Origin: Sinomicrobium soli
GTDB taxonomy: Bacteria > Bacteroidota > Bacteroidia > Flavobacteriales > Flavobacteriaceae
DNA: 64,000 bases
Direction: 5' to 3'
Assembly: GCF_003285545.1 (NCBI RefSeq)
Contig: NZ_QLNV01000005.1
Coordinates: 186,001 to 250,000 of the forward strand
Shown piece by piece: positions 35,050 through 40,452 of this stretch. The position numbers and the translations under genes were made by a program. Position 1 is the first letter of the stretch; the number at the start of each line of letters is the position of its first letter. The notes beneath the pieces were generated by a model. It did no database searches. It was not told the origin of the DNA and worked only from the letters and a program-made list of their open reading frames with translations.

Positions 35050-36210
35050 ATGCAGATCTTTCCTAAGGAAATAATCGACAGTACGGTAGAAGCCCATCAT
35101 TTTAAGCTGCGTAACCGCAGTAAGATGATCTATGGCCTGGTGCTGTTGGGCATTCTGGGATTTCTTTTGTCGCTTCCGTTCATATATGTGGATGTGTATA
35201 CGACTTCGAGGGGGATTATCAAGCCGGAAGTGGAACGTGCCCAGCTGACCCTGATCAATTCGGGGAAAGTCACTTATAAGAATATGGGGAATAACCAGCG
35301 GGTAGAGAAAGGAGATACCCTTCTTGTGCTCAACAACGAGCAGATAGATGATAAATTATCACTTTACCGTCAGCAGATCAGGGACAACCGCAGTTTTGTA
35401 CACGACCTTTCACTGCTGTCCGAAGGAGGGGACATTGCCCCTTCCAGGCTGAGTTCTCCGAAATATAAGGCCGGTTATATAGAGTACAGGCAAAAGATCA
35501 GTGAGCTGGAAACCAGGCTGGAAACCACGCGAAAGGATTTTGAACGGCATAAGAGGCTGCACGACCGCCGTGTGATCTCCAATGCCGAGTTTGAGGCCAA
35601 AAAACTGGAATACGATATGGCCGGAAGCGATCTGCAGAGTTACAGGACACAGCAGCAATACCAGTGGCAATCGGAACAGACTTCCCTTGCGAATACGCTT
35701 AAGGAACTGGGGTCTGATTACAACCAGTACGCATCCAATAACCGTAATTATGTGCTTACTGCCCCGGTATCCGGAACATTATTGCGCGTGGCCGGTATAG
35801 AAGAGGGGGGGTATATCAATTCCGGGGTAAATATCGGGGAGATCTCACCGGATACCGGATTGCTTATCGAGTGCTATATAACGCCGTCCGATATCGGCCT
35901 GGTACGGGAATCGCAGGCGGTAACCTATCAGATAGATGCCTTTAATTACAACCAGTGGGGCTTTGCTACCGGGCAAATTGTAAGTATAGGGAACGACATA
36001 GAAAATATTGATGAAGAAACCGCGGTCTTTAAGGTACGGTGCAGCATCAATGAGAAATACCTCCAATTAAAAAACGGATTCAGGGGAAACCTCGGTAAAG
36101 GGATGACCCTGACTGCAAATTTCAAACTTACCGAGAGATCGCTTTTTGATCTCCTGTACGATAAAGTGGATGATTGGCTTAATCCATCCAGGGCTTTGAC
36201 AAACAACTGA
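35050..36210 (+). CDS. HlyD-family membrane fusion protein of the peptide exporter
   Basis: 386-residue periplasmic adaptor expected to join the C39 ABC exporter at 38287 to an outer-membrane channel. One N-terminal membrane helix (about 28-48, IYGLVLLGILGFLLSLPFIY) is followed by the beta-domain start GIIKPEVERAQLTLINSGKV. A long alpha-hairpin/coiled coil spans about 135-225, with KISELETRLETTRKDFERHK, then the second lipoyl half YVLTAPVSGTLLRVAGIEEG and a beta-barrel part. The C-terminal segment LTANFKLTERSLFDLLYDKV is typical of Bacteroidota peptide-secretion HlyDs. A TTTTGTCTA stretch at 35000-35008, like those before the peptide genes, may be its promoter. A small HTH gene follows after 43 bases. 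Confidence 0.9.
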   Translation: MQIFPKEIIDSTVEAHHFKLRNRSKMIYGLVLLGILGFLLSLPFIYVDVYTTSRGIIKPEVERAQLTLINSGKVTYKNMGNNQRVEKGDTLLVLNNEQIDDKLSLYRQQIRDNRSFVHDLSLLSEGGDIAPSRLSSPKYKAGYIEYRQKISELETRLETTRKDFERHKRLHDRRVISNAEFEAKKLEYDMAGSDLQSYRTQQQYQWQSEQTSLANTLKELGSDYNQYASNNRNYVLTAPVSGTLLRVAGIEEGGYINSGVNIGEISPDTGLLIECYITPSDIGLVRESQAVTYQIDAFNYNQWGFATGQIVSIGNDIENIDEETAVFKVRCSINEKYLQLKNGFRGNLGKGMTLTANFKLTERSLFDLLYDKVDDWLNPSRALTNN

Positions 36211-36253
36211 ATTACACCCCGCTTGTATTTTAACGTCTAAACCCCGTTGGATA

Positions 36254-36571
36254 ATGAAGAATTTAAAAAATCTCGAGCGTTTGCAGCAATTGCATCAGCT
36301 GATCGCCAGAGAAGCTACAGGATCACCGACACAGCTGGCCCGGTTAATGCAGATCAGTGAGAGAAAGGTGTACCAGTTGATTGAACAGTTAAAGGATATA
36401 GAAGCTCCGGTTTCCTATAGCAGGGTTCATAAAACCTATTTTTACGAAGACGACTTTGATCTCAAGGTTACTGTTTCGGTAAGAGTGCTCAGGGATAACG
36501 AACTTACCGAGATCTTCGGAGGAAGTTATTTTCTCTCCAACGGAGCCCTGAAGTACAACATATTACTTTGA
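36254..36571 (+). CDS. Small HTH protein in the peptide export locus
   Basis: 105 residues, no signal or membrane segment. Residues 5-60 form a winged-helix/HTH_11-like DNA-binding region (LHQLIAREATGSPTQLARLM then QISERKVYQLIEQLKDIEAP) and the tail has a beta-rich wing SYSRVHKTYFYEDDFDLKVT. No phosphorylation or ligand domain is seen. It lies 43 bases after the HlyD gene and just upstream of a repeat-rich region and the peptide genes, so it is the obvious candidate to read the ACTGCAAGG motifs found there (inference). Proteins of this size recur beside peptide exporters in Bacteroidota, to my recollection. Confidence 0.8.
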   Translation: MKNLKNLERLQQLHQLIAREATGSPTQLARLMQISERKVYQLIEQLKDIEAPVSYSRVHKTYFYEDDFDLKVTVSVRVLRDNELTEIFGGSYFLSNGALKYNILL

Positions 36572-36599
36572 TGGGGTCCTGCCGTCTCTTTTAAGATAT

Positions 36600-36795
36600 T
36601 TTGTTTTGGGTTATTAAGTTACTGGGTTAATGAGTTATTGGGTTATTTGGTTTTTACCTGAATAACCCAATAACCTAATAACTTAATATGCTGATAACCA
36701 GTTACCGGGTTAATGAGTTATTGGTTATTTGGTTTATGCGTGTTGCCTGAATAACTTAGTAACCGAATAACTTAATAACCTGCTACCCCAATAAC
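36600..36795. repeat. Large GTTATT/AATAAC microrepeat array
   Basis: About 25 variants of GTTATT(GG/AG/AA) and its complement, arranged as two successive inverted pairs (36605-36687 and 36696-36795), each half able to fold on itself. It is part of the 468-bp gene-free stretch between the HTH gene and the first peptide gene. The same repeat unit appears at 22500-22567. Confidence 0.75.
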
Positions 36796-36887
36796 CCCTT
36801 CCGGAAGTCTGTGACTTTTGCAGAATATGGTTTCCTTTCCCGTCCGGCAGACATGAAATACCGGTTTAATGGATACAAAAGCGAAAA

Positions 36888-36906
36888 ACTGCAAGGTTTG
36901 TGCAGT
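36888..36906. promoter_or_regulatory. Candidate operator 1, ACTGCA-N7-TGCAGT
   Basis: ACTGCAAGGTTTGTGCAGT is a perfect 6-7-6 inverted repeat. An identical 19-mer lies before peptide 2 (37303-37321). It lies 133 bases before the peptide 1 start codon. Confidence 0.5.
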
Positions 36907-36959
36907 GGGTGCTGTTACCTTAGCGGAACAAAACACAGGGGCTTCCCGGTGTTTTGAAT

Positions 36960-36998
36960 CTTGCAGGTAACCTGTTAGAGTTACTGCAAGGCTTGTCC
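36960..36998. promoter_or_regulatory. Imperfect hairpin with a further ACTGCAAGG motif
   Basis: CTTGCAGGTAAC (36960-36971) pairs with GTTACTGCAAG (36980-36990) with one bulge. The right arm continues as ACTGCAAGGCTTGTCC (36983-36998), a 14 of 16 match to the first part of the operator-like 19-mer. It abuts the -7-like box of peptide 1. Confidence 0.45.
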
Positions 36999-37009
36999 CG
37001 AAAAATGTA

Positions 37010-37017
37010 AACTTTTG
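37010..37017 (+). promoter_or_regulatory. -7-like box of peptide gene 1
   Basis: AACTTTTG fits nAnnTTTG (one mismatch to consensus) and is 22 bases before the ATG; the corresponding box of peptide gene 2 has precisely the same distance. Confidence 0.5.
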
Positions 37018-37039
37018 TATAACTTAAATTAAAACAATC

Positions 37040-37234
37040 ATGAAAAATCTGGAAAACTACGGTGTACAGGAACTGAACGCAAAAGAAATGAACGAAACCA
37101 ACGGCGGACTTCTCGGAGGTCTGGACGGGGTTCTCGACCTGGTCGGGGGAGTAGTTAACACTGTTGTAGGTGTTGTAGGCAGCGTTGTTAACGTTGTTAC
37201 CGGTCTTCTCGGAAGCCTTCTCGGAGGGTTATAA
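37040..37234 (+). CDS. Double-glycine-leader secreted peptide 1 (bacteriocin-like)
   Basis: 64-residue precursor. The 23-residue leader MKNLENYGVQELNAKEMNET ends NGG, the double-glycine site cut by C39 peptidases. The 41-residue core begins LLGGLDGVLDLV and ends GLLGSLLGGL; it contains no Cys, Lys, Arg, His or aromatic residue and only two Asp, so it is strongly hydrophobic and weakly acidic. Small residues (G, S, T, N, D) fall at core positions 3/4, 7, 10, 13/14, 17/18, 21, 24/25, 28, 31/32, 35/36 and 39/40, a 3.5-residue spacing, i.e. a glycine-zipper helix. Candidate class II bacteriocin-like or signalling peptide; no modifying enzyme is present. It has its own promoter-like box and terminator. 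Confidence 0.88.
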   Translation: MKNLENYGVQELNAKEMNETNGGLLGGLDGVLDLVGGVVNTVVGVVGSVVNVVTGLLGSLLGGL

Positions 37235-37254
37235 ACCAGTAAACGGTATAAAAG

Positions 37255-37288
37255 AACCGGCCGCTTTTACAGATGGCCGGTTTTTTTT
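37255..37288 (+). terminator. Intrinsic terminator of peptide gene 1
   Basis: Stem AACCGGCC (37255-37262) with GGCCGGTT (37275-37282), 12-base loop and an eight-T run (37281-37288). Confidence 0.9.
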
Positions 37289-37302
37289 CGTAAAAACGCC
37301 AA

Positions 37303-37321
37303 ACTGCAAGGTTTGTGCAGT
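37303..37321. promoter_or_regulatory. Candidate operator 2, ACTGCA-N7-TGCAGT
   Basis: Identical 19-mer to the one at 36888-36906, 158 bases before the peptide 2 start codon, directly after the terminator of peptide 1. Confidence 0.5.
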
Positions 37322-37449
37322 GAACACTCCTAAATTAGTGGTCGCTTAGCATTGATGCCATTTCAGTGCGTATTCTTCCAGACACCCGACGCCCCCACCC
37401 GGTACATCTATGATGTCCGGCGGTCAGATCAACCAAAAGTAATAACGCA

Positions 37450-37457
37450 AATATTTG
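37450..37457 (+). promoter_or_regulatory. -7-like box of peptide gene 2
   Basis: AATATTTG (one mismatch to TAnnTTTG), 22 bases before the ATG, followed by TCTAACC as in the region before the HlyD gene (TCTATA). Confidence 0.5.
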
Positions 37458-37479
37458 TCTAACCTAATTTTATTTTATC

Positions 37480-37674
37480 ATGAAAAATCTGGAAAACTAT
37501 GGAGTTCAGGAACTGAACGCAAAAGAAATGAACGAAACCAACGGCGGACTTCTCGGAGGTTTGGACGGAGTTCTTGGCCTGGTTACGGGAATTATAGGTA
37601 CCGTAACGGGAGTTGTAGGCACTGTAGTGGGCCTCGTGAGCGGCTTGCTTGGCGGACTCCTCGGAGATCTGTAA
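37480..37674 (+). CDS. Double-glycine-leader secreted peptide 2 (tandem duplicate)
   Basis: 64 residues with a leader identical to that of peptide 1 over all 23 residues and the same first nine core residues (LLGGLDGVL), after which the core diverges (LGLVTGIIGTVTGVVGTVVG then LVSGLLGGLLGDL) while keeping length 41 and the pattern. Glycines are at core positions 3, 4, 7, 10, 14, 17, 21, 24, 28, 32, 35, 36 and 39, an even clearer GxxGxxxG zipper than in peptide 1. Nucleotide identity in the leader is almost complete, with a few third-position changes, showing a recent tandem duplication followed by core divergence. A two-peptide bacteriocin is one reading; paralogous signals is another. Confidence 0.88.
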   Translation: MKNLENYGVQELNAKEMNETNGGLLGGLDGVLGLVTGIIGTVTGVVGTVVGLVSGLLGGLLGDL

Positions 37675-37684
37675 AATAACACAG

Positions 37685-37717
37685 AAAAAAGGGTGTTGGA
37701 AACAATACCCTTTTTTT
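37685..37717 (+). terminator. Intrinsic terminator of peptide gene 2
   Basis: 14-bp stem, 37685-37698 (AAAAAAGGGTGTTG) with 37703-37716, one G-T wobble, GAAA tetraloop and a seven-T run. Confidence 0.92.
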
Positions 37718-37818
37718 ACATGACCCGGCAGGCTGCCGTATGCCAGGCAGGTACGGGAAACAGGAGTGCCGGCCCCGAATGCCGCTATCCTGGTTTTTTG
37801 TCTATGGGCCTCAGCCTG

Positions 37819-37847
37819 TTGTGCCGTATACGGAACTTGCAGTTTTG
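37819..37847 (+). promoter_or_regulatory. Candidate promoter of peptide gene 3
   Basis: TTG at 37819-37821 and CAGTTTTG at 37840-37847, 18 bases apart, near the Bacteroidota TTG-N19-TAnnTTTG layout. CTTGCAGTT over the -7 box is the reverse complement of the AACTGCAAG half-site found upstream of peptides 1 and 2. Confidence 0.5.
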
Positions 37848-37876
37848 TCTTTTATTAACTAAAAATGAATTATACT

Positions 37877-38086
37877 ATGAAAAATCTGGAAAACTACGGA
37901 GTTAAAGAAATGAAAGCCACAGAAATGGAAACAACCAATGGCGGATTGTCCATAGGGATCGGAATAGGCGGGGTCAGCGAATTCCTGACAGGAGCTCTCG
38001 GGCTTGTGCTGGGAGCTGTAGGCGGAGCCGTTACACTGGTTTCCAACCTGTTGAACAGTATTTCCGTGTCTGCCTCTGCAGAGTAA
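37877..38086 (+). CDS. Double-glycine-leader secreted peptide 3 (divergent paralogue)
   Basis: 69 residues from ATG 37877; an ATG at 37865 would add MNYT, but the later start restores a 23-residue leader (MKNLENYGVKEMKATEMETT then NGG) matching the other two. The 46-residue core LSIGIGIGGVSEFLTGALGL ... SISVSASAE is again Gly/Val/Leu-rich without Cys, Lys or Arg, but is longer, has one Phe, and ends in a polar Ser/Ala tail with a final Glu. It shares leader type and export route but not core sequence with peptides 1 and 2. A strong terminator follows, then the exporter gene. Confidence 0.85.
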   Translation: MKNLENYGVKEMKATEMETTNGGLSIGIGIGGVSEFLTGALGLVLGAVGGAVTLVSNLLNSISVSASAE

Positions 38087-38107
38087 TAAATATACCATTA
38101 TGCTTTT

Positions 38108-38142
38108 AAAAGCTGTTTCCTCACCGGGGAAGCAGCTTTTTT
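38108..38142 (+). terminator. Intrinsic terminator of peptide gene 3
   Basis: 13-bp stem, 38108-38120 (AAAAGCTGTTTCC) with 38128-38140, one G-T wobble, seven-base loop and a T-run to 38142. It separates the peptide genes from the exporter gene. Confidence 0.88.
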
Positions 38143-38286
38143 ATTAGGCGCGTAAATGGGTTGAAACGACATGCTTTTTACAATTACCGGGTGTGCAGAT
38201 GTGGCCTGATAGACCAATTAACCATTCACTGCATGTTTTTTGCAGTAAATTTGAGTACTTTGCCCTCCCAAATCCGGATAACCGAT

Positions 38287-40452
38287 ATGGCAAAGAAGAG
38301 TACGATAATAAAACAACACGATATTACGGATTGTGGCGCGGCATGCCTGGCTTCCGTATCGGCACATTACAACCTGAAGATCCCCATTGCCCGTATACGA
38401 CAATATGCCAGTACCGACAAGAAGGGAACCAATGTATTGGGGCTTATAGAGGCCGCCCGGAAACTGGGTTTTGAAGCCAAGGGGGTGCGGGGCGAGACCG
38501 ACAGCCTTTTCAAGATCCCCAAGCCGGCGATTGCTCATGTGGTGGTAAGGGAAGTGCTGCATCACTATGTGGTGATCTATGAAGTGACCAGGAAGCACGT
38601 TCTTATCATGGACCCCGGCGATGGAAAAATGCACAGGAAGACCCATGAGGAGTTTGAGAAAGAGTGGACCGGGGTACTGGTACTGCTCATGCCTGATGAC
38701 GGATTTTCAGAGGGTAATGAAAAAGTCTCTTCGCTGAAGAGGTTCTGGTTCCTGCTCCGCCCGCACAAGTTTGTATTGCTTCAGGCTTTTTTCGGGGCCC
38801 TTGTGGTTACCCTGCTCGGTTTTTCAACATCGATTTACCTGGGGAAGATCACCGATTACGTGCTTACCGGGGGCAATACCCGGCTGCTCAATCTTCTCAG
38901 TGTGGTCATGCTTGTATTGCTGCTGCTGCAGATCCTGGTCAGCGTATTCAAGGATACTTTTCTTATCAAGACCGGGCAGCAGATCGATGCCCGTCTTATC
39001 CTGGGGTATTACAAACATCTGCTGAAACTGCCGCAGCAGTTTTTCGACACCATGAGGGTGGGGGAGATCATCTCCAGGATCAACGATGCGGTAAAGATAC
39101 GTACCTTTATAAACGGAGTTGCCCTGAGCCTTACGGTGAACGTGCTTATTCTTCTTTTTTCCTTCGGGCTGATGTTTTTCTATTACTGGAAACTGGCCCT
39201 TATCATGCTGGCCATCATCCCCCTGTATATTGGAATATACCTGATTACCAACAGGCTGAATAAAAAGGCGGAAAGAAAAGTGATGGAACGTGCTGCCGAT
39301 CTGGAAAGCCAGCTGGTGGAATCGCTCAATGCCGTGGGTACGATAAAGCGGTTCGGGCTGGAATCTTTTGCCAATATAAAGACCGAGGCGCGCTTTATCA
39401 ACCTTTTGAACGTAGGGTATAAGTCTGCCCTGAATACGGTTTTTTCGGCTACTTCTTCCACCTTCGTATCGCAACTCTTTACCATCATTTTGCTCTGGAG
39501 CGGGTCGTACTTTGTCATAGGGCGGGAGATCACTCCCGGAGAACTGCTCTCTTTCTATGCGATTATCGGGTATTTTACAGGTCCGGTAGCCCAGCTTGTG
39601 GAAGCCAACAAGCAGATACAGAATGCCTGGATCGCTGCCGACCGCTTGTTTGAGATCATGGACCTGGAACGGGAGGAACAGGAAGACAAAATAAAATTGA
39701 CCGGGGAAAAAACAGGGGATATAGCCTTCAGGAACGTGTTTTTCAGGTACGGAACGCGGGTAGAGGTCTTTAAGGATTTTTCACTGGACATCCCCAAGGG
39801 AAAGATCACCGCGGTAATAGGGGAGAGCGGCTCGGGAAAATCTACGCTTATTTCACTGCTGCAGAACATATACCCCATACAACGGGGAAAGATCACGATC
39901 GGTGAATACGATCTGAAATATATCGAAAATACCAGCCTCAGGGATATCGTGGGTGTAGTTCCGCAAAAAATAGATCTTTTCGGGGGCAATGTGGTCGAGA
40001 ATATTGCCGTGGGAGAATTTCAGCCCGATATGGAGAAGATCATGGAGATCTGTAAAAATATAGGCATACTCTCCTTTGTTGAAAACCTGCCCAATGGTTT
40101 TGCTACCCATCTGGGGGAAAACGGGGCGGCGCTTTCCGGAGGACAGAAGCAGCGTATAGCCATTGCGAGGGCGTTGTACAAGGAACCGGAGATCCTTGTG
40201 CTCGACGAAGCCACTTCTTCCCTCGACAGTACCTCCGAAAGTTTTGTACAGAAAACGATAGCCAGCCTCCGGGAGAGGGACAAGACCATTATCGTTATCG
40301 CACACCGGCTGAGTACGGTGGTCCATGCAGATAAGATCGTCGTACTGGACAAAGGTGAGGTTATAGAGGAAGGAGATCACCGGCAGCTATACGGCAGCAA
40401 GGGCCATTATTACAAACTGTGGCAGCAGCAGATGCCTGATTTTGCAATGTAG
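38287..40452 (+). CDS. C39-peptidase ABC exporter for double-glycine peptides
   Basis: Bifunctional processing exporter, 721 residues from ATG 38287 (MAKKSTIIKQHD); the open frame reaches 38161 but the peptidase domain begins at the later ATG. The C39 domain has the catalytic cysteine C16 in HDITDCGAACLA, histidine H93 in LHHYVVIYEV and aspartate D109 in LIMDPGDGK, so it should cut after the double glycine. Six membrane helices follow (about 165-440). The ATPase has Walker A GESGSGKST, the signature LSGGQKQRIAIARAL and Walker B EILVLDEATSSLD with the switch histidine in IVIAHRLST. Together with the HlyD at 35050 it forms the inner-membrane part of a type I peptide secretion system; the outer-membrane channel is not in the window. 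Confidence 0.96.
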   Translation: MAKKSTIIKQHDITDCGAACLASVSAHYNLKIPIARIRQYASTDKKGTNVLGLIEAARKLGFEAKGVRGETDSLFKIPKPAIAHVVVREVLHHYVVIYEVTRKHVLIMDPGDGKMHRKTHEEFEKEWTGVLVLLMPDDGFSEGNEKVSSLKRFWFLLRPHKFVLLQAFFGALVVTLLGFSTSIYLGKITDYVLTGGNTRLLNLLSVVMLVLLLLQILVSVFKDTFLIKTGQQIDARLILGYYKHLLKLPQQFFDTMRVGEIISRINDAVKIRTFINGVALSLTVNVLILLFSFGLMFFYYWKLALIMLAIIPLYIGIYLITNRLNKKAERKVMERAADLESQLVESLNAVGTIKRFGLESFANIKTEARFINLLNVGYKSALNTVFSATSSTFVSQLFTIILLWSGSYFVIGREITPGELLSFYAIIGYFTGPVAQLVEANKQIQNAWIAADRLFEIMDLEREEQEDKIKLTGEKTGDIAFRNVFFRYGTRVEVFKDFSLDIPKGKITAVIGESGSGKSTLISLLQNIYPIQRGKITIGEYDLKYIENTSLRDIVGVVPQKIDLFGGNVVENIAVGEFQPDMEKIMEICKNIGILSFVENLPNGFATHLGENGAALSGGQKQRIAIARALYKEPEILVLDEATSSLDSTSESFVQKTIASLRERDKTIIVIAHRLSTVVHADKIVVLDKGEVIEEGDHRQLYGSKGHYYKLWQQQMPDFAM

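Follow-up and report, generated by a model that had tools for sequence, protein, structure and literature searches.

Among described systems, those closest to the locus reported here are the C39-peptidase ABC exporters (PCATs) ComA and LahT (TIGR01193), the class IIb two-peptide bacteriocins of the lactobin A/cerein 7B family (TIGR03949), the bacteroidetocins, and the gonococcal nap island. Class IIb peptides are glycine-rich, hydrophobic, and encoded by paired genes, and in this they resemble the products of the present locus. The published C39 leader consensus has Leu at −12, Glu at −8, and Leu at −7, the bound leader is helical from −11 to −4, and in LahT a charged residue at −7 prevents cutting (PMC6363468). 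The bacteroidetocins (PMC6671954), from the same phylum as our organism, likewise have a C39-ABC exporter, a double-glycine leader, and no immunity gene, but carry at least two Cys residues and are accompanied by a TM protein and mostly by a thiol oxidoreductase. The nap island (PMC11798529) likewise joins double-glycine peptides and a C39 peptidase to an adjoining small putative DNA-binding protein, NapR, but differs in its cationic cores, a FapF-like channel, and an immunity-like gene. Our literature searches found no account of how such double-glycine peptide loci are controlled.

In a 64,000-nucleotide stretch of the Sinomicrobium soli genome (the window), ORF calls place a HlyD-type adaptor, a winged-HTH protein, three double-glycine precursors, and a C39-ABC exporter on the plus strand between positions 35050 and 40452 (Table 1). 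The ORFs and coordinates, derived anew, agree with the compact plus-strand export locus of a preliminary description of this DNA, and the locus is present in 6/6 genus genomes examined. Like ComA and LahT, the exporter passes its family cut-off (550.2 bits versus 523.85 for TIGR01193, searched from codon 2), and C39 (PF03412, 130.7 bits), ABC_membrane (PF00664), and ABC_tran (PF00005) domains score above their cut-offs in one chain; PADLOC matches to it fall within its ATPase part, and PADLOC matched no precursor. Alternative in-frame starts for this gene lie at TTG 38161 and ATG 38233. The adaptor, 79–91% identical in the five other genus loci, does not reach the type I adaptor family TIGR01843 (119.6 versus 208.65 bits).

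Table 1. Features of the locus (positions in the window).
Feature	Position	Strand	Basis or remark
HlyD-type membrane-fusion adaptor, 386 aa	35050..36210	+	Pfam HlyD_3, 52.7 bits (cut-off 22.2)
Winged-HTH regulator with C-terminal leader-like motif, 105 aa	36254..36571	+	AF2 model
Arg37 codon, recognition helix	36362..36364	+	Covaries with operator half-site
Leader-like motif VRVLRDNELTEIFGG, residues 76–90	36479..36523	+	Positions −15 to −1
Variable 15-residue tail	36524..36568	+	After putative cleavage site
Operator ACTGCAAGGTTTGTGCAGT upstream of precursor 1	36888..36906	+	Exact palindrome; conserved in relatives
Probable −7 element TACCTTAG, precursor 1	36916..36923	+	Fixed-spacing consensus
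Precursor 1, double-glycine, 64 aa	37040..37234	+	Leader 1–23, core 24–64
Operator ACTGCAAGGTTTGTGCAGT upstream of precursor 2	37303..37321	+	Exact palindrome
Probable −7 element TAAATTAG, precursor 2	37331..37338	+	
Precursor 2, double-glycine, 64 aa	37480..37674	+	Leader 1–23, core 24–64; AF2 helix 5–63
Precursor 3, double-glycine, core 46 aa	37877..38086	+	In-frame ATG also at 37865
Operator ACTGCATGTTTTTTGCAGT upstream of exporter	38228..38246	+	Exact palindrome
Probable −7 element GTACTTTG, exporter	38255..38262	+	
C39-peptidase ABC exporter, 721 aa	38287..40452	+	From ATG 38287; TIGR01193 and Pfam

The absence of a modifying enzyme and of an evident immunity gene, both remarked on previously, was borne out. 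No modifying enzyme turned up when the six genes were searched against Pfam and NCBIfam profiles. In the six genus loci, every ORF of 30 aa or more that begins with ATG was compared with every other; for queries from G000 and G003, the comparison yielded no small ORF, precursors aside, that was shared and could encode immunity, although an unshared one may exist. Whatever was common to at least three genomes proved to be a known gene, a precursor, or a frame lying antisense to a known gene or overlapping one; no receptor gene common to the six loci appeared for these two query loci. The TM protein and thiol oxidoreductase of the bacteroidetocin loci are absent from the six genes.

The earlier account of uncharged to acidic cores without Cys or basic residues likewise stands: the cores of 41, 41, and 46 aa each contain 0 Cys and 0 Lys+Arg and have a net charge of −2, which sets them apart from bacteroidetocins and from the ComA and LahT systems. 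Their leaders, with Leu or Met at −12, Glu at −8, Met at −7, Thr at −4, and GG, agree with the C39 substrate consensus and fail only a strict pattern (Leu at −7 plus a hydrophobic −4). No precursor matches a Pfam or NCBIfam family above cut-off. Homologues of precursor 2 number 3, 8, 9, 10, and 11 in the five other genus genomes (E ≤ 0.01), and selection on the A-type precursors, for which it was computed, is purifying (e.g., precursor 1 core, G000 versus G004: dN 0.026, dS 0.42); the precursors are therefore not chance ORFs.

What the cores do was previously left among pore-forming two-peptide bacteriocins, adhesive or amyloid-like matrix peptides, and cell-cell signals; a helical membrane-active peptide now fits best, and beta-type amyloid is disfavored. 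AF2 models precursor 2 as a single helix (pLDDT 89–92 over residues 31–60, pTM only 0.43), and the A-type core is predicted to be a single long helix whose glycines line one side, although AF2 tends to render short hydrophobic peptides as helices. Hydrophobic residues recur with a period of 3.6 in all three window cores, and one relative's precursor lacks exactly 7 core residues, which fits two helical turns. Against 500 shuffles, glycine periodicity was significant for precursor 2 (0/500) and for an E-type core (p 0.028) and nonsignificant for precursors 1 (0.062) and 3 (0.81). An adhesive or amyloid-like matrix role, favored by the high Gly/Val content, the 26–44% beta-branched residues across six core types tested, and the period of 2.1 in a relative's C-type core, seems improbable beside this helical evidence, which opposes beta-type amyloid in particular and does not establish killing. 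That the locus is a plain class IIb-like operon for two- or multi-peptide bacteriocins comes close to an even bet: double-glycine leaders, the C39 exporter, and the glycine-faced helix speak for it, as does the adjacency of E- and D'-type genes in 4/5 dispersed loci (L037–L041, with an A-type gene between them in L037). Against it, none of the three window cores has a cationic residue, and precursor 3 scores 10.1 bits for TIGR03949, under the cut-off of 21.5 (precursors 1 and 2 were not listed). The missing immunity gene, otherwise a further objection, is no argument in this phylum, because bacteroidetocin producers inhibit themselves (PMC6671954). Such a function concerns the cores and is compatible with the regulatory reading developed below; in either case, glycine-faced helical cores, uncharged to acidic, are an unusual cargo for the C39 route.

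At the exporter and at most precursors, a 19-bp palindrome overlaps the promoter. The TTTG (−33) of the precursor 1 promoter lies inside the operator; downstream, a −7 consensus TAacTTAG stands at fixed spacing from the operator in 32 precursor sites (aligned sites were required to contain a TGCA[AT]G half-site), and the Bacteroidota promoter consensus is TTTG/TAnnTTTG (PMC6847099). A variant like ACTGCATGTTTTTTGCAGT precedes the exporter in relatives. In the six genus genomes, 27/27 exact sites, found with a pattern written from known sites, either fall within the locus or precede a double-glycine precursor; the full search gave 79 matches (52 with one mismatch) versus 11 for a reversed-pattern control, and one mismatch added 10 palindromes in the window's own genome, 0 of them in the locus. 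A precursor or exporter start lies downstream of 37/40 listed sites, and three precursor genes absent from the peptide matches at E ≤ 0.01 (L180, L182, and L185) were found through the operator.

The likely reader of these sites is the HTH protein, which had passed for an accessory; on the present evidence, no other gene here is as informative. The operators and the protein's C-terminal motif had been overlooked in the preliminary description. The AF2 model (pLDDT 82.7) has helices at residues 2–18, 25–32, and 36–48 and strands at 53–56, 61–64, 74–80, and 83–90, with three helices and a wing forming a block of pLDDT 96–98 (residues 11–70). Pfam HTH families match below cut-off only, a PADLOC match to WYL is weak (E 1.2e-05), and the top Foldseek matches listed include the winged-HTH regulators BirA, NiaR, and TM1602, none at E ≤ 0.001. 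Across the phylum, an R-type site (score ≥ 10) lies near the 3' end of the HTH gene in 18/64 homologues versus 6/442 control ends, and an S-type site (score ≥ 11; pattern defined on the very loci scored) in 9/64 versus 1/442. A pattern-free palindrome scan matched all six outer pairs at 13/69 HTH gene ends versus 15/450 controls (p 1e-5), several of the 13 being AT-rich palindromes other than the operator. Among the 27/64 homologues with a gene-end site, Arg37 accompanies a TGC half-site in 18/18 and Ser37 a TCC/TCT half-site in 9/9; 26/44 Arg37 homologues, the window's own included, and 5/14 Ser37 homologues have no recognizable site there. These counts omit 5/69 homologues shorter than 60 aa; 17/44 further homologues without any exporter test were set aside as not at issue. 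The protein very probably controls a regulon, and we consider it highly likely that it binds DNA, putatively the palindrome.

In contrast to the ComA and LahT systems, the regulator itself ends in a leader-like motif. Its C-terminus, LRDNELTEIFGG, fits the published C39 leader consensus. With a PSSM trained on 67 precursor leaders, the motif scores 15.2, whereas 1515 control stretches have a 99.9th percentile of 11.7 and a maximum of 16.9; scores above the 99th percentile of controls occur in 26/42 homologues whose genomes have the exporter and in 5/22 whose genomes lack it. The strict pattern L...EL..[IVLM].G[GAS] is found in 6/56 homologues, all from the genus (13/69 under 85 aa left out), and is absent from 596 mechanical control ORFs totaling 254,318 residues. 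The positional profile at −15, −12, −8, −4, and −1 resembles that of the precursors, also when redone with a freer choice of leaders, since the pattern of the first leader set had demanded hydrophobic positions; position −3 is often Phe rather than Asn. The alignment left out 6/56 homologues, and glycine conservation in it is somewhat overstated because four of these (L135, L160, L162, and L164) lack the motif.

The motif's last glycine followed by a tail of at least 6 aa tracks the export genes. It is present in 36/42 homologues with an exporter in the genome versus 3/22 without (no C39 at an identity of about 55% or more), and in 36/40 with a precursor within 3 kb versus 3/24 without; these counts and the PSSM counts omit 5/69 homologues under 70 aa. 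One of those omitted, the truncated L050 (G035), has AG plus a tail and no close exporter found in its genome. With the tail ignored, the glycine alone is kept in 8/22 exporter-less homologues. Two of the three exceptions, L143 and L147, have precursors next to them together with an ABC or C39 exporter that is more distantly related; the third, L123, has neither. A tree-aware test found only 3 independent pairs on supported branches and was not significant. In a phylum sample of 395 genomes, the exporter occurs in 30, the HTH protein in 29, and both in 20 (p 1e-19). No HTH homologue appeared in 10/30 exporter genomes; the search scored 12 first-look candidates per genome, and homologues may therefore have escaped it. 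In G280, G385, and G389, the exporter does not adjoin the HTH gene in the assembly.

An ordinary regulated export locus, in which the HTH protein binds the palindromes, its C-terminus is a structural beta-hairpin that is leader-like by chance, and the tail is spacer DNA overlapping the operator downstream, is a real contender that we are inclined to doubt. AF2 indeed folds residues 74–80 and 83–90 as a hairpin (pLDDT about 70–78), which could serve dimerization, for example, whereas a bound leader would be helical; exporter-less orphans mostly keep the hydrophobic motif positions; and −7 is weak, being hydrophobic in 58% of 36 HTH motifs versus 86% of 79 precursor leaders and sometimes charged; beyond the genus, nonhydrophobic residues are frequent there. 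The operator also overlaps tail codons in several relatives. However, the last glycine and the tail, unneeded by a hairpin, are what track exporter and precursors, the genus motif matches L−12, E−8, L−7, and GG exactly, and L142 keeps its operator just past a stop directly after GG, so the operator does not need a tail. The tail itself evolves quickly (dN 0.02–0.95 versus 0.006–0.073 for codons 1–72 in 15 genus pairs) and is modeled with pLDDT below 50 (residues 93–105). Short hypervariable tails are typical of signals, and the protein might be a fused pheromone precursor, cut after GG by the exporter, with the tail as cell-cell signal and the regulator as its intracellular partner. The leader position and tails of 7–34 residues in 36 intact homologues from exporter genomes would suit this very improbable arrangement; yet tail variation stems partly from operator DNA read in frame, no shared peptide pattern was seen otherwise when tails were compared, and the two query loci gave no receptor gene. 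Freely varying tails that partly encode the operator likewise led us not to prefer the tail as a conserved pheromone.

Taking the locus, the operators, the leader match, and the association with exporter and precursors together, all read from sequence, we favor a helical-peptide export locus under an export-gated regulator, with a probability of about 0.42. In its phylum-wide form, held just as tentatively, Bacteroidota regulators would carry a C-terminal double-glycine leader, and the C39 exporter would bind or cut the regulator of its own substrates. The locus would make helical, glycine-faced, uncharged membrane peptides that the C39-ABC/HlyD exporter carries out; the HTH protein would sit on the palindrome at the exporter and most precursor promoters and, in relatives, also at precursors elsewhere in the genome. 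The C39 domain would recognize its C-terminus, which we rate an even chance, and would probably cut it, removing the short tail. The HTH protein would act most likely as a repressor: (i) a free exporter would hold or spend the regulator, relieving repression, and (ii) an exporter occupied by precursors would let it go again; precursor supply would thereby follow export capacity. Repression and this homeostat logic are, jointly, rather doubtful; the sign is a guess from the promoter overlap, and class II activators overlap the same promoter region as repressors would.

In FlgM/FliA flagellar control, a regulator spent via the export machine couples transcription to export. That case differs in its type III system and anti-sigma factor, and homology is not claimed; if the proposal is true, the present locus would be an ABC-exporter counterpart of such export-coupled control. 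Loci for double-glycine peptides are found repeatedly in the phylum sample, and the operator with its probable regulator offers a handle on precursors that sequence search misses, as with three in this study. Should the exporter indeed read the regulator, transcription would sense export capacity directly and would need neither a membrane sensor nor an extracellular signal.

The run of six genes in one direction claimed by the preliminary description is present on a single strand of the window (G000:C39:186001-250000 in the organism's own 4.6-Mb genome, G000), and the locus is real, with an exporter of an ordinary kind. Read from its ATG, the exporter is of the C39-ABC type, as had been stated (TIGR01193, 550.2 bits against a cut-off of 523.85), with C39, membrane and ATPase domains in the chain by family search; the HlyD fusion protein likewise exceeded the cut-off of Pfam HlyD_3, and precursors 1 to 3 gave nothing above cut-off in the family search. 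The assertion that the cores (the exported parts of the precursors) lack Cys and basic residues also held, with 0 Lys, 0 Arg and 0 Cys in the 41-, 41- and 46-residue cores, each with a net charge of -2, and these cores are unusual. AF2, given 21 aligned precursors of the A and E types (letters denote precursor types), modeled a single helix over residues 5-63 (pLDDT 89-92 over 31-60; pTM 0.43), the hydrophobic residues have a period of 3.6 in the three window cores and of 2.1 in a relative's C-type core, and one A-type precursor at the dispersed locus L037 lacks exactly seven core residues. The glycine periodicity peak was significant by shuffling for precursor 2 and not for precursors 1 and 3. 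Taking these results together, we read the cores as a predicted glycine-faced membrane helix.

Features of the window and of loci read around homologues
Feature	Location	Strand
Six-gene locus	window 35050-40452	+
HTH protein gene (105 aa)	window 36254-36571	+
AT-rich repeats, about 8 bp each and decaying, HTH gene to precursor 1	window 36600-36800	
Exact operator palindrome, first	window 36888	
Exact operator palindrome, second	window 37303	
Exact operator palindrome, third	window 38228	
Exporter gene, from ATG	window 38287-40452	+
A-type precursor with shortened core	L037:8719-8889	
HTH gene whose product stops exactly after EIFGG, with operator and precursor	L142:6864-7541	
Two Gly/Leu/Ser-rich double-glycine peptides	L217:9592-10470	
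Array of 19 double-glycine precursors	L223:9007-12359	-

Of 99 sampled genomes of relatives, 11 contain precursor homologues (E<=0.01) when the window's own three copies are counted, and the other five members of the genus, all among those 11, carry 3 to 11 copies each. The six genus loci share one gene order, namely adaptor, HTH protein, precursors (3 to 7 per main locus) and exporter, with genes on either side that, from their sequence, we take to be glutamate dehydrogenase, ahead of the adaptor, and recO, after the exporter. Two A-type precursors and one B-type occur in 6/6 main loci, and the E, D and C types in some only (one D-type copy in L033 is cut short). Five dispersed loci (L037-L041) have no exporter within the stretch read; E-type and D'-type genes adjoin in four of them and are separated by an A-type gene in L037, and single precursors of other types lie in L044, L180, L182 and L185. 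In the genus relatives L033, L034 and L036, an E-type precursor stands where the window has the AT-rich repeats. Elsewhere, the L217 peptides, from another family of the class, lie near a close exporter and are similar in make-up to the window peptides, a likeness that is possibly convergent, and the L223 array, in which many precursors are nearly identical, adjoins an exporter.

A regulon defined by a 19-bp palindromic operator, ACTGCA-N7-TGCAGT, is well supported. The count of three sites in the window, all exact, is not decisive by itself, because three or more palindromes with <=2 mismatches arose in 11/100 shuffles (1.26 expected in the window). Over the whole of G000, three of the four exact palindromes lie in the window, and none of the ten one-mismatch palindromes does. 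A scan of the six genus genomes, using a spacer-specific pattern derived from already known sites, returned 27 exact sites; 22 belong to the main loci, and the 5 outside them have a double-glycine precursor downstream in 5/5 cases. Allowing one mismatch raised the matches to 79, whereas the pattern in reverse gave 11. The precursors of L180, L182 and L185 were found through the operator and are absent from the peptide-search matches at E<=0.01. For 37 of the 40 sites listed, a gene start follows at a distance of no more than 381 nt, that of a precursor in 32 cases (consensus AAACTGCAAGGTTTgTGCAGtGAataat.tTAacTTAGc) and that of an exporter in 5, a sixth exporter start (L032) having escaped the count since the start pattern used did not match. 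Upstream of precursor 3 in the window, no site was found with up to two mismatches. The TTTG within the palindrome, together with TAnnTTAG or TTACTTTG downstream of it, is similar to the -33/-7 promoter elements of Bacteroidota, of which the -33 element is reported to be much less evident than the -7 (PMC6847099).

As to which protein binds the operator, 23/149 family genomes and 29/395 phylum genomes encode a homologue of the HTH protein. An R-type site (TGC half-site, score >=10) lies near the 3' end of 18/64 HTH genes versus 6/442 control gene ends, a scan whose reach falls short of the window's own first site, about 300 nt past the gene. The S type (TCC or TCT, score >=11) gave 9/64 versus 1/442, a count that is not independent because its pattern was defined on the same loci. 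Residue 37 of the recognition helix is Arg in 44, Ser in 14 and Ala in 6 of the 64 homologues, and among those with a site, the half-site is TGC for 18/18 proteins with Arg37 and TCC or TCT for 9/9 with Ser37. This pairing with the recognition helix is a stronger point than the S-type site count, although its rows are related and do not amount to 27 independent events.

In the 395-genome phylum sample, taken as identical for both counts, a close exporter occurs in 30 genomes, an HTH homologue in 29 and both in 20 (Fisher p 1e-19). Counting against an export-gated regulator, no HTH homologue is found in the other 10 of the 30 exporter genomes, nor at E<=1 beside their exporters (some contigs are short), and the two genes lie apart in G280, G385 and G389. 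Orphan homologues at L117-L119 and L121-L128 have no close exporter adjoining and, save one doubtful case, no precursor detected in the stretch read, some contigs again being short; L118 and L119 retain an operator-like site.

The C-terminus of the HTH protein could itself be a leader. Residues 79-90, LRDNELTEIFGG, fit L(-12)-X3-E(-8)-L(-7) plus Gly-Gly, the leader consensus for ComA and LahT (PMC6363468). A strict leader pattern matched 6/56 homologues, all from the genus, and none of 596 mechanical ORFs at least 200 aa long; relaxing the pattern gave 21/56 homologues, with 11 matches among the 254,318 control residues. Under a matrix trained on precursor leaders only and compared with 1515 control stretches, the window protein scored 15.2 (top control 16.9), and 26/42 homologues from exporter genomes exceeded the 99th percentile versus 5/22 from exporter-less ones. 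The last glycine is among 12 columns conserved at >=90% in an alignment of 50/56 homologues of >=85 aa, which left out six, four of them without the motif. Between genus pairs, where dS is often saturated, dN over codons 73-90 is 0-0.065, similar to the DNA-binding domain, and reaches 0.95 past codon 90. Counting against a leader, AF2 places the motif, with moderate confidence, in the second strand of a hairpin, and position -7 is often non-hydrophobic and -3 often Phe. Orphans without an exporter mostly keep the hydrophobic positions, which are therefore at least partly structural.

The exporter-associated feature is instead the glycine plus the tail after it. Glycine with a tail of >=6 residues occurs in 36/42 homologues with an exporter in the genome versus 3/22 without (p 2e-8), and glycine regardless of tail in 36/42 versus 8/22; with a precursor within 3 kb, the glycine and tail are found in 36/40 versus 3/24, an association not independent of that with the exporter. 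Of the six homologues in exporter genomes that do not show glycine plus tail, L126, L130, L135 and L165 are extra copies, and L156 and L163 are truncated. Among exporter-less genomes, the protein ends at or shortly past the glycine in G427, G169, G023, G146 and G190, has lost the glycine in G031, G042, G108, G145, G149 and others, and keeps both in G330, G377 and G163; a truncated homologue in G035, left out for length, retains AG and a tail. Supported branches of the tree supply only three independent pairs (mean 2.7 in the same direction over 200 pairings), too few for this test to reach significance. At L142, the operator lies downstream of the stop after EIFGG, and a precursor is still present in a genome where no close exporter was found.

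A literature search covering few subscription papers or preprints, and judged by titles, abstract openings or passages, gave no recognizable description of a double-glycine/C39 leader on an HTH or winged helix regulator; the sources consulted include PMC8939145, PMC6671954, PMC11798529, PMC10352776, PMC6363468 and PMC6847099. We offer the export-gated regulator as a testable proposal, and give about even odds to its leader part, that the C-terminus of the HTH protein serves as a leader.
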